Origin: Pseudochrobactrum sp. sp1633
GTDB lineage: Bacteria; Pseudomonadota; Alphaproteobacteria; Rhizobiales; Rhizobiaceae
DNA: 64,000 bases
Direction of reading: 5' to 3'
NCBI RefSeq assembly: GCF_030376605.1
Contig: NZ_JARRAE010000006.1
Location: forward strand, 124,001-188,000
Both the position numbers and the translations under genes were made by a program. Below are positions 5,857 to 9,948 of this stretch, piece by piece. Below the pieces are notes generated by a model, which was not told the DNA's origin, searched no databases, and saw only the letters and a list, made by a program, of their open reading frames with translations. Position 1 is the stretch's first letter; each line of letters starts with the position of its first letter.

Positions 5857-7411
<1,555 letters not shown>

Positions 7412-7431
7412 GCTGCAAACATAAAGCGTTT

Positions 7432-7467
7432 AAAGCCCCGGACGATCTCACCGTCCGGGGCTTTTTT
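7432..7467 (+). terminator. Terminator of the aspartate aminotransferase gene
   Basis: AAAGCCCCGGACG, a 7-base loop, CGTCCGGGGCTTTTTT: a 13-bp perfect stem with a T-run. Confidence 0.92.
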
Positions 7468-7567
7468 ATTGTGCTCACGCCCGCGCATGGAGAATGCTGC
7501 GCCCACAGGCAGGCCAGCATAACGCGCTAAGAAACAGGATTGAGTTTTGCCCCTCAGGAATCCGGAC

Positions 7568-7681
7568 AAAAAAAAGCCGGACAAAAGCCCGGCTTGGAAT
7601 TTTGAAGGCGTCATATGGACAAGCCTTCAGAGGGGAACACTCAGCGATGCGCAATGGGAGGAGGAGACGCATCACTAAGAT
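7568..7681 (-). ncRNA. AbcR-like (alpha-r15) trans-acting small RNA with anti-Shine-Dalgarno loop
   Basis: On the minus strand three consecutive hairpins form a unit of about 114 nt. The first has stem GATGCG/CGCATC (7668-7673 with 7646-7651) and a loop carrying CCTCCTCCC (7664-7656), complementary to ribosome-binding sites. The second is TGAAGGC/GCCTTCA (7629-7623 with 7609-7603). The third is a terminator, AAGCCGG with CCGGCTT and a long U-run (7595-7568). A promoter precedes the unit at the right distance. AbcR1/AbcR2 (SmrC15/SmrC16) sRNAs of rhizobia and Brucella are about this long, have this architecture and the CUCCC loop, and lie beside the lsrB/vtlR gene, exactly as here. They repress ABC-transporter mRNAs with Hfq. 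Only one copy is visible here. The identity rests on structure and context, not on alignment. Confidence 0.75.
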
Positions 7682-7687
7682 GACCTG

Positions 7688-7716
7688 TATATGCTCCTTT
7701 AAGCCTGATTTCACAA
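7688..7716 (-). promoter_or_regulatory. Promoter of the AbcR-like sRNA
   Basis: On the minus strand TTGTGA (7716-7711), an exact 17-base spacer, then CATATA (7693-7688). The predicted start near 7681 gives the RNA length expected for AbcR. Confidence 0.55.
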
Positions 7717-7726
7717 CGCCCGATAT

Positions 7727-7743
7727 TGCACAGCAGCCATGCA
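7727..7743 (-). promoter_or_regulatory. Candidate LysR-type operator upstream of the sRNA
   Basis: TGCA-N9-TGCA, an interrupted dyad containing T-N11-A (T at 7727, A at 7739), the minimal LysR box. It is centred about 54 bases before the predicted sRNA start, in the zone where LysR regulators bind to activate. It could be chance. Confidence 0.35.
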
Positions 7744-7801
7744 TTTTCAGATAGCTCAGCGTCTTGAACGGGATTTCTTTGCACAGGTCGTCATTCAAAA
7801 T

Positions 7802-7828
7802 AAAAAAAGCCGGTAAAAACCGGCTTTT
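7802..7828 (-). terminator. Terminator of the LysR-type regulator gene
   Basis: AAAAGCCGGT, loop, ACCGGCTTTTTTT on the minus strand, 20 bases beyond the regulator stop. It separates the regulator transcript from the sRNA promoter downstream. Confidence 0.88.
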
Positions 7829-7847
7829 CCAATGCAACTGGCTTTAT

Positions 7848-8753
7848 TCAGTAAGACCAGTTCCTGGCCTTTGAGAAAATAAAATCGCGGAAAACATGCA
7901 GCTTCGCCGCATTTTTCAATGCTTCCGGATAGCAGAAAAATGTATCGAATGTAGGAATCTCACCCAATGCAGGCAGCAATCGCACCAGACCCGATGTTTT
8001 ATCGGCCATATAATCAGGCAACACGCCGATCCCCACCCCACCGAGTACAGCACGGCGGATTGAAAGCAGATTATTGACCTGCAAGGTCGGAATACGTGCA
8101 CCGCCATCTGTGCGGCCAGCCGTTTCCAGCCAGTTCAGCCCCATCAGATAAGAAGGAGCGGATTCACCAAATGTCACAATGCGATGCTCATCCAGCTCTT
8201 CTATTGCATTCAGCTTGCCATATTTGGCAATATAACCCTCAGACGCATAGACATGCATATGCACGGTAAACATGCGTCGCTGAATCAGATCAGGCTGCTG
8301 CGGCTGGCGCAAACGCAAAGCGCAATCCGCATGACGCATCGTCAGATCCAGTTCCTCGTCATCAAGGATCAGCTGAACCTGAACATCAGGATAGAGATCG
8401 GCGAATTCTTCCATCCGCTCAATCAGCCAGCCGGAACCAAGTCCTACTGTCGTTGTGACGCGAAGACGACCTGAAGGTTTTTCACGGTTTTCATTGAGTT
8501 TGGAGCGGACATTTTCCAGCTTCATCAGCACATCATGTGCCGTACGATACAGGATTTCGCCCTGCTCAGTCAGAATAAGGCCACGCGCATGACGATAGAA
8601 CAGCGCCACACCGACATCCTGCTCAAGCGCACTTACCTGACGTGAAATTGCAGATTGTGACAAATGCAATGTCTGCGCCGCATGGGTAAACGAGCCGGCT
8701 TCAGCAGCGGCATGAAAAATGCGTAGCTTATCCCAGTCAAGTGGTGCCACCAC
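7848..8753 (-). CDS. LysR-type transcriptional regulator, LsrB/VtlR type
   Basis: A 301-residue LysR regulator: winged helix-turn-helix at about 6-65 (DKLRIFHAAAEAGSFTHAA, LSQSAISRQVSALE), then a periplasmic-binding-fold effector domain. The sequence and its position beside trxB match LsrB of Sinorhizobium (oxidative stress, symbiosis, lipopolysaccharide) and VtlR of Brucella abortus, where it activates the sRNA AbcR2. The sRNA-like element just downstream supports this. The start is GTG at 8753 with GGGG five bases before it; a second GTG follows directly. One or more cysteines in the effector domain (for example in ADCALR) could be redox-sensing as proposed for LsrB. The LysR call is certain, the orthology likely. 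Confidence 0.9.
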   Translation of the reverse strand: MVAPLDWDKLRIFHAAAEAGSFTHAAQTLHLSQSAISRQVSALEQDVGVALFYRHARGLILTEQGEILYRTAHDVLMKLENVRSKLNENREKPSGRLRVTTTVGLGSGWLIERMEEFADLYPDVQVQLILDDEELDLTMRHADCALRLRQPQQPDLIQRRMFTVHMHVYASEGYIAKYGKLNAIEELDEHRIVTFGESAPSYLMGLNWLETAGRTDGGARIPTLQVNNLLSIRRAVLGGVGIGVLPDYMADKTSGLVRLLPALGEIPTFDTFFCYPEALKNAAKLHVFRDFIFSKARNWSY

Positions 8754-8988: not shown

Positions 8989-9948
8989 CTAAGCAACGGG
9001 TTGAGCTGCCAGCCAGCGCTCAGCTTCAAGCGCCGCCATACATCCCATACCCGCTGCAGTAACAGCCTGCCGGAAGGTTTCATCTGTCACGTCACCGGCA
9101 GCAAAAACCCCTTCAATACTGGTAGCCGTTGAATCCGGAGCAGTCCACAAATAGCCGCTATCCTTCATCTTCAGCTGTTCTTTGAACAATGATACCGCCG
9201 GCGCATGGCCGATTGCCACAAACACACCATCCGTCTTCATATCTGAAACAGCACCGGTCACAGTGTCTTTAAGACGCGCACCGGTCACAATCGGTCCCAT
9301 AGGCGGGTTGGCAGGATTTCCGGTGATTTCCTCAACCGCATGGTTCCAGATAACCTTAACATTTTCACGCTTGAGCAGACGTTCCTGCAAAATCTTTTCC
9401 GCACGAAAAGTATCGCGACGATGAACAACGGTCACAGATTTCGCAATGTGCGAAAGATACAGTGCTTCTTCAACAGCTGTATTACCACCGCCGACAACAA
9501 TCACATCCTTGCCGCGATAGAAGAAACCATCACAGGTGGCACAGGCCGAAACGCCGCCACCCATAAAATGCTGTTCGCTTTCAATACCAAGCCATTTGGC
9601 CTGCGCACCGGTCGCAATAATCACAACATCACTGGTAAACACTGTGCCGCTGTCGGTCTTTGCCGTAAACGGGCGCTTGGAGAGATCAACTTCCGACACC
9701 AAATCATAGACGATTTCAGCGCCGACATTTTCAGCCTGCTTGGCCATCTGCTCCATCATCCACGGCCCCTGCACGGTTTCCGCATAGCCAGGATAGTTTT
9801 CAACATCGGTGGTAATCATCAACTGACCACCCTGCTCCAATCCAGTAACAATCACCGGCTTCAACATAGCGCGGGCAGCATAAATGGCGGCCGTATAACC
9901 GGCAGGACCCGAACCGATGATGAGGACTGGAACATGGCGCTGTGTCAT
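8989..9948 (-). CDS. trxB: Thioredoxin-disulfide reductase
   Basis: A 319-residue low-molecular-weight thioredoxin reductase, a cytosolic FAD enzyme that uses NADPH to reduce thioredoxin. The FAD-binding GSGPAGYTAAIYAAR lies at 13-27, the redox-active CATC at 136-139, the NADPH-binding GGGNTAVEEAL near 170, and the closing FAAGDV near 285. The length is standard. The regulator gene lies 235 bases downstream on the same strand; no clear terminator was seen between them, so read-through is possible. The oxidative-stress role of LsrB-type regulators fits this neighbour. Confidence 0.97.
   Translation of the reverse strand: MTQRHVPVLIIGSGPAGYTAAIYAARAMLKPVIVTGLEQGGQLMITTDVENYPGYAETVQGPWMMEQMAKQAENVGAEIVYDLVSEVDLSKRPFTAKTDSGTVFTSDVVIIATGAQAKWLGIESEQHFMGGGVSACATCDGFFYRGKDVIVVGGGNTAVEEALYLSHIAKSVTVVHRRDTFRAEKILQERLLKRENVKVIWNHAVEEITGNPANPPMGPIVTGARLKDTVTGAVSDMKTDGVFVAIGHAPAVSLFKEQLKMKDSGYLWTAPDSTATSIEGVFAAGDVTDETFRQAVTAAGMGCMAALEAERWLAAQPVA

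Follow-up and report, generated by a model that had tools for sequence, protein, structure and literature searches.

The stretch of DNA analysed here, called the window below, comprises 64,000 nucleotides from Pseudochrobactrum sp. sp1633, and it carries an AbcR-family small RNA (sRNA) gene downstream of a regulator gene of the LsrB/VtlR type. The order on the minus strand is trxB, lsrB, sRNA, and an aspartate aminotransferase-like gene is convergent with them. The features are as follows.

6203..7411, plus strand: aspartate aminotransferase-like gene, convergent (PRK06107, 567.6 bits; the cut-off of 617 is not reached)
7432..7464, plus strand: aminotransferase terminator, facing the sRNA (terminator scan)
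7569..7680, minus strand: AbcR-family (ar15) sRNA gene, predicted transcript (Rfam RF02345, fold, covariation)
7574..7595, minus strand: hairpin 3, the intrinsic terminator, then a T run to 7568 (fold and terminator scan)
7603..7629, minus strand: hairpin 2 (fold, covariation)
7630..7637, minus strand: aSD2 TTCCCCTC (motif position; unpaired in the fold)
7633..7638, minus strand: M2 GTTCCC (motif position; unpaired in the fold)
7640..7679, minus strand: hairpin 1 with anti-Shine-Dalgarno loop (fold, covariation)
7655..7660, minus strand: M1 CTCCCA, overlapping aSD1 (exact published motif)
7656..7663, minus strand: aSD1 CTCCTCCC in the loop of hairpin 1 (exact published motif)
7688..7716, minus strand: core promoter TTGTGA-N17-CATATA (TTGTGA at 7711-7716, CATATA at 7688-7693)
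7730..7742, minus strand: predicted LsrB/VtlR box GCATGGCTGCTGT (exact GCAT-N3-TG-N3-T)
7803..7830, minus strand: lsrB terminator, between lsrB and the sRNA unit (terminator scan)
7848..8753, minus strand: lsrB/vtlR, LysR-type regulator, predicted activator (open reading frame, LysR-family models, relatives)
8989..9948, minus strand: trxB, thioredoxin reductase (TIGR01292, 403.4 bits, over cut-off)

The neighbouring regulator is of the LsrB/VtlR type, as the original prediction held. The gene lies beside trxB, and its product is 68-98% identical to the 80 relatives retained, the closest being those of P. kiredjianiae, P. saccharolyticum, and P. asaccharolyticum (97-98% identity). LysR-family models match it, none of them over cut-off among the 25 of 56 matches listed. 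The sRNA had been placed directly after the regulator's terminator, and the lsrB terminator does separate the two genes. A terminator scan of 7400-8000 gave three terminator-like sites, against 1.1 in shuffles. Comparable arrangements of lsrB/vtlR and AbcR have been reported in Agrobacterium and Brucella (PMC7486931, PMC12595884), and a relative of the aminotransferase gene adjoins the lsrB-side ar15 in many of the relatives' loci. One record titled Bacillus subtilis strain SK6B4 (JAHREI010000004.1) has an lsrB 97% identical to that of the window together with an ar15 RNA, and is apparently a Pseudochrobactrum genome under a wrong label.

Family, fold and pairing motifs of the sRNA

The sRNA is a full-length member of the Rfam ar15 (AbcR) family. 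Positions 7569-7680 of the minus strand match the covariance model RF02345 from 1 to 112 of 112 with 58.1 bits, against a gathering score of 40 (E 3.1e-9), and this is the only Rfam match at the gathering threshold in the whole 64-kb window. The score is modest compared with the 91.9-127 bits of the top matches listed across the wider family. Rfam clan CL00108 lists RF02345; the suhB family (RF00519) was compared as well, and this identity was rejected at 19.6 bits against a gathering score of 41. The genome has its own suhB sRNA at another site (G000:C56:52577-52651; RF00519, 56.1 bits, gathering 41). The assignment to AbcR made from the sequence by eye thus agrees with the model, as does the estimated length of about 114 nt, which is 112 nt by the ar15 match (7680-7569).

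The predicted fold is far more stable than expected by chance. The free energy of 7569-7680 is -45.7 kcal/mol, compared to -22.25 (sd 3.17) for shuffled sequences (z -7.4), and none of 200 shuffles folds as well. Each structural element that had been described is present: three hairpins (7679-7640, 7629-7603, and 7595-7574), the CCUCCUCCC loop in hairpin 1, and a U-rich terminator formed by 7595-7574 with its T run.

Covariation among relatives supports the helices. The alignment consisted of 31 hand-chosen ar15 sequences (30 distinct), including first and second copies. Changes on both sides are found in 10 of the 23 predicted pairs: seven of ten consensus pairs in hairpin 1, two of five in hairpin 2, and just one of eight in the terminator helix. 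Among the 30 distinct rows, 97.2% of the cells are paired, and both-sided changes occur in 68 cells, against a shuffle mean of 22, and slid controls never exceed 10. Of five covariation measures, one (further pair types) did not rise above the shuffles, 425 of 500 being at least as high.

The motifs through which AbcR RNAs pair with their targets occupy the published places. M1 (CUCCCA) and M2 (GUUCCC) were defined as AbcR pairing motifs in one study (PMC5461406), and aSD1 and aSD2 in another (PMC8844928). In the window sRNA M1 and aSD1 lie in the first loop, and M2 and aSD2 lie in the unpaired stretch that links hairpin 1 to hairpin 2. The genome also has an hfq gene.

Promoter and predicted LsrB/VtlR box

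The core promoter is weak as an E. coli-type promoter, and its spacing is conserved. A sigma-70 consensus scan of 7400-8000 returned no site (0.5 in shuffles), so positional conservation was used as the test instead. The pattern TTG-N20-[CG]ATA is found at the same slot in all 58 lsrB-linked ar15 promoters (57 ar15 matches in 55 loci, plus the window). The -35/-10 pair with 17-base spacing that had been proposed is therefore conserved in position.

The main promoter feature, absent from the original prediction, is an LsrB/VtlR box 62 nt before the sRNA. It is an exact instance of GCAT-N3-TG-N3-T, the box proposed for Brucella and Agrobacterium (PMC7486931), and it is spanned by a dyad, TGCA-N9-TGCA, at 7727-7743. 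The exact box is present at -58 to -64 in 52 of the 58 lsrB-linked promoters, and five of the remaining six have it with one change. In letter-shuffled promoters (single-letter rather than dinucleotide shuffles) it occurred in 7 of 11600. In B. pituitosa (L142) the sRNA is located about 5.5 kb from lsrB, the box is retained, and the aminotransferase gene still adjoins.

A box matrix separates the first and second sRNA copies of the genus. It was trained on 45 promoters (31 distinct 21-mers) from other genera; the window, six rows from Pseudochrobactrum (L016-L021), and the six promoters lacking an exact box were excluded, so that the matrix represents boxed promoters only. The first copies of seven Pseudochrobactrum genomes score 24.8-28.6, compared to a maximum of 14.3 in 1500 background stretches, and the second copies score -7.3 to -2.1; these are seven related genomes and hence not independent. 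High box-like scores are thus found in seven of seven first copies and none of seven second copies. Among the loci scored with the matrix, L216 is cut at a contig end, and its site lies at about -111.

Control of an AbcR sRNA by LsrB/VtlR has been found experimentally in Agrobacterium, Brucella, and S. meliloti (PMC7486931, PMC8844928). The S. meliloti abcR1 promoter is reported to have the box between -61 and -49, deletion of the part bearing the motif lowered activity more than 22-fold, and LsrB binding was seen in gel shifts (PMC8844928). In contrast to that study, neither AbcR was reported to be lsrB-dependent in S. meliloti 1021 (PMC7486931).

Second copy and distribution in relatives

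The genome has a second ar15 copy at a separate locus. The original prediction saw a single copy, which is correct for the window and not for the genome; its suggestion of a second locus elsewhere was borne out by a genome search. The second copy (G000:C7:2722-2824, plus strand) scores 41.4 bits, so that both copies (58.1 and 41.4 bits) are over the cut-off, and they are not in tandem. The genome search also returned five weak matches of 13.1-17 bits (E 0.93-9.3); these were taken as chance, since sub-threshold matches turned up at that setting in 12 of 14 control genomes too. Exactly two copies are present in all seven genomes of the genus, one of which is 61% complete. By readings of the translations, a DMT-type transporter gene precedes the second copy and a ugpB-like gene follows it. 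Both neighbours have relatives at the second copy in the six other genomes of the genus (90-97% identity). At ten second-copy loci from other genera (L145, L149, L156-L158, L160-L162, L164, and L165), no relatives of the two were found within 1.5 kb on each side.

The second copy of this genome has M1, M2, and aSD2, with CTTCCTCCC where aSD1 would stand. Its core promoter (TTGAA-N17-CCATAT-like) resembles, by eye, both published consensus forms, and transcription by RpoH, as for S. meliloti AbcR2, is not concluded. Judged by eye, second-copy ar15 promoters have in common a TGGTCAAAAA-like sequence ahead of the -35 (L002 1410-1500, L132-L137, L145, L156-L158, and L160-L162, of which L145 and L160 are poor fits), possibly the site of another regulator. 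VtlR of B. abortus is reported to control abcR2 and not abcR1 (PMC7486931). Judging from the promoters, it looks as if one AbcR copy of Pseudochrobactrum is likewise driven by LsrB and the other is not. Since the second copy has no LsrB box, the inputs to the two copies probably differ.

The lsrB-linked copy is widespread. An ar15 match above the gathering score is found in 55 of 80 lsrB loci, always on the lsrB strand and downstream of lsrB. The other 25 have no such match within the downstream region of up to 3 kb that was covered; these loci need not lack the RNA, because in B. pituitosa it is farther away than that. Among 297 genomes of the family, searched with stricter filters that lose weak matches, 227 have an ar15 match at E <= 0.001 and 206 have one that exceeds the curated score. 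More than one AbcR copy has been reported in Rhizobiaceae and Brucellaceae (PMC3712013). In 19 genomes selected by way of named loci (E <= 0.01) there are two copies in ten, three in three, four in two, and one in three, all Bartonella; one genome, Candidatus Tokpelaia (L065), has none. Mesorhizobium sp. RMAD-H1 (L138, G307:C7:214226-214335) has an ar15 copy of 114.2 bits with an LsrB box at -61, M2 and aSD2, and without M1 and aSD1; none of the tested neighbours is found within 1.5 kb of it.

The arrangement is closest to known systems in Brucella and the rhizobia. AbcR2 of Brucella abortus and B. melitensis (ar15, RF02345) is likewise the copy beside vtlR with a VtlR-type box, it has M1 CUCCCA and M2 GUUCCC, and its sibling is at a separate locus. 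The B. melitensis annotation places two hypothetical genes after vtlR, with abcR2 antisense to the second (PMC12595884), whereas here the interval from lsrB to the sRNA shows no evident gene of this kind. AbcR1 of Sinorhizobium meliloti and Agrobacterium tumefaciens is also reported next to lsrB/vtlR, with the box in the same upstream region and with aSD1 and aSD2 identical to those of the window sRNA, but its sibling is in tandem at the same locus. The names cross in the reports: what is called AbcR2 in Brucella, the LsrB-driven copy, corresponds to the AbcR1 of Sinorhizobium and Agrobacterium. Active growth is described as the phase of the LsrB-dependent copy in S. meliloti (PMC8844928), so the expectation that the window sRNA would be seen in stationary phase may be wrong.

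Interpretation and a possible wider regulon

The window very probably encodes a trans-acting AbcR-family (ar15) sRNA that is activated by LsrB/VtlR through the box and, with Hfq, silences mainly ABC-transporter mRNAs. Family membership, structure, motifs, box, second copy, and hfq gene are observed directly; transcription, LsrB binding, use of Hfq, and targets are inferred from relatives. LsrB/VtlR made from the adjacent gene would bind the box at 7730-7742 and activate the weak promoter TTGTGA-N17-CATATA. Transcription would start near 7680 and stop at the intrinsic terminator (7595-7574). Acting with Hfq, the RNA would use aSD1/M1 (first loop) and aSD2/M2 (linker) to base-pair with its target mRNAs at the Shine-Dalgarno region or in the early codons; these mRNAs would mainly encode ABC-transporter proteins. 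By analogy with tested relatives, these mRNAs would be silenced by being blocked or destabilised.

Constitutive or read-through transcription of the same sRNA, with the LsrB box inactive in this genus, is improbable. The intact spacing of the core promoter would allow it, but lsrB has its own terminator, and the weak -35 is what is expected of an activated promoter. The box is kept at a fixed distance in nearly all lsrB-linked promoters, is retained where the sRNA has moved away from lsrB in B. pituitosa, and is absent from the second copy, all of which speaks against this reading.

Two readings that deny an sRNA gene are less probable still. The sRNA is 3' of lsrB on the same strand, so the hairpins might be a mere terminator region or the 3' end of lsrB. 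A separate terminator precedes the sRNA, however, and the promoter and box are conserved, both-sided changes occur in all three helices (in the terminator helix in a single pair), and the second copy is away from lsrB; this reading is very unlikely. A small protein gene is given just as little weight. Open reading frames of 120 and 68 aa (minus strand) and 86 aa (plus strand) do overlap the stretch, and in B. melitensis the annotation has a hypothetical gene antisense to abcR2 (PMC12595884). Against this, across 18 first-copy rows, that of the window among them, the length of the RNA ranges from 112 to 123 nt by steps not divisible by three, and the internal minus-strand frames of these rows close at differing places. 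Conservation follows the base pairs and the aSD motifs. On the non-triplet length steps and shifting frame ends the small-protein reading was rejected.

LsrB-box-like sites are also found at other loci. A genome scan for TGCATRGCTGNNNTGC with at most one mismatch gave 23 matches at 22 places (one palindromic place counts twice, on both strands), against four for the reversed pattern. Fourteen matches are probably chance because they are inside open reading frames of 134 aa or more. The others include those in the window, upstream of both DUF1127 genes, of an ar14 sRNA, and of a peroxiredoxin-like gene, and at two intergenic sites without gene assignment (L172, L183). The site near the last of these genes, TGCATAGCTGCTATGC, is perfectly palindromic (L168 1501-1516 = G000:C3:18276-18291) and lies about 180 nt upstream of that gene, whose translation reads as a peroxiredoxin; on the opposite side of the site is a further open reading frame.

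The ar14 RNAs and DUF1127 genes have upstream sites of differing strength. The stand-alone ar14 sRNA (L180 1501-1675 = G000:C12:232730-232904; 76.9 bits, gathering 58.8) has a box-like dyad about 58 nt upstream. One DUF1127 gene has an ar14 RNA directly downstream (75.3 bits; L192 1501-1775 = G000:C4:14636-14910) and a box-like site that precedes the domain match by about 103 nt, an arrangement found in all seven genomes of the genus. Downstream of the other DUF1127 gene, ar14 matches weakly and below threshold (30.9 bits). Sites upstream of both DUF1127 genes score 16.0-26.5 in all seven genomes, against the background maximum of 14.3; they run in reverse orientation to the gene, and the site is nearly a dyad. 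The best site of the stand-alone ar14 scores 14.4 at -58 in five genomes, against the same maximum, and 15.1 and 19.8 at -79 in the other two. The seven related genomes are not independent for these scores.

Published systems contain parts of this pattern. NfeR1 is presumably an ar14 RNA (RF02344). It resembles the window sRNA in its anti-Shine-Dalgarno motifs and is activated by LsrB in S. meliloti (PMC10746234), but it belongs to a separate Rfam family with three CCUCCUCCC-type hairpins, and this genome has separate ar14 RNAs. The NfeR1 promoter also has an NtrC site, and the authors believed this arrangement to be confined to plant symbionts (PMC10746234). In B. melitensis, VtlR targets include three DUF1127 genes (PMC12595884). 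The DUF1127 gene followed by an anti-Shine-Dalgarno RNA resembles the ccaF1 arrangement of Rhodobacter. The four sRNAs of that arrangement are, we assume, CcsR RNAs with CCUCCUCCC motifs. Four sRNAs downstream of ccaF1 are reported (PMC12501420). The Rfam CcsR1 model matches the stand-alone ar14 below threshold (26.9 bits against 65.3). No literature joining CCUCCUCCC with DUF1127 was found among open-licence papers. From the sites it is conceivable, at slightly less than even chances, that a single switch, LsrB/VtlR, controls nearly all anti-Shine-Dalgarno RNAs of Pseudochrobactrum, namely the lsrB-side AbcR, the stand-alone ar14, and both DUF1127 genes (of which one is directly followed by ar14), and that the second AbcR copy escaped to another promoter. 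If this is true, the link between LsrB and ar14, reported for plant symbionts, extends to a genus of the Brucella family.

The window sRNA itself is an ordinary, well-formed AbcR sRNA of a known family that tunes nutrient uptake in rhizobia and their relatives. Among the papers listed by a literature search on sRNAs of the genus, none is about Pseudochrobactrum sRNAs by its title or the start of its abstract. An AbcR system of two copies, of which one has an LsrB box and the other has none, is now placed in this genus of the Brucellaceae. The conservation of the box gives a testable regulon, and Pseudochrobactrum could serve as a non-Brucella relative for studying how sibling sRNAs split their inputs.
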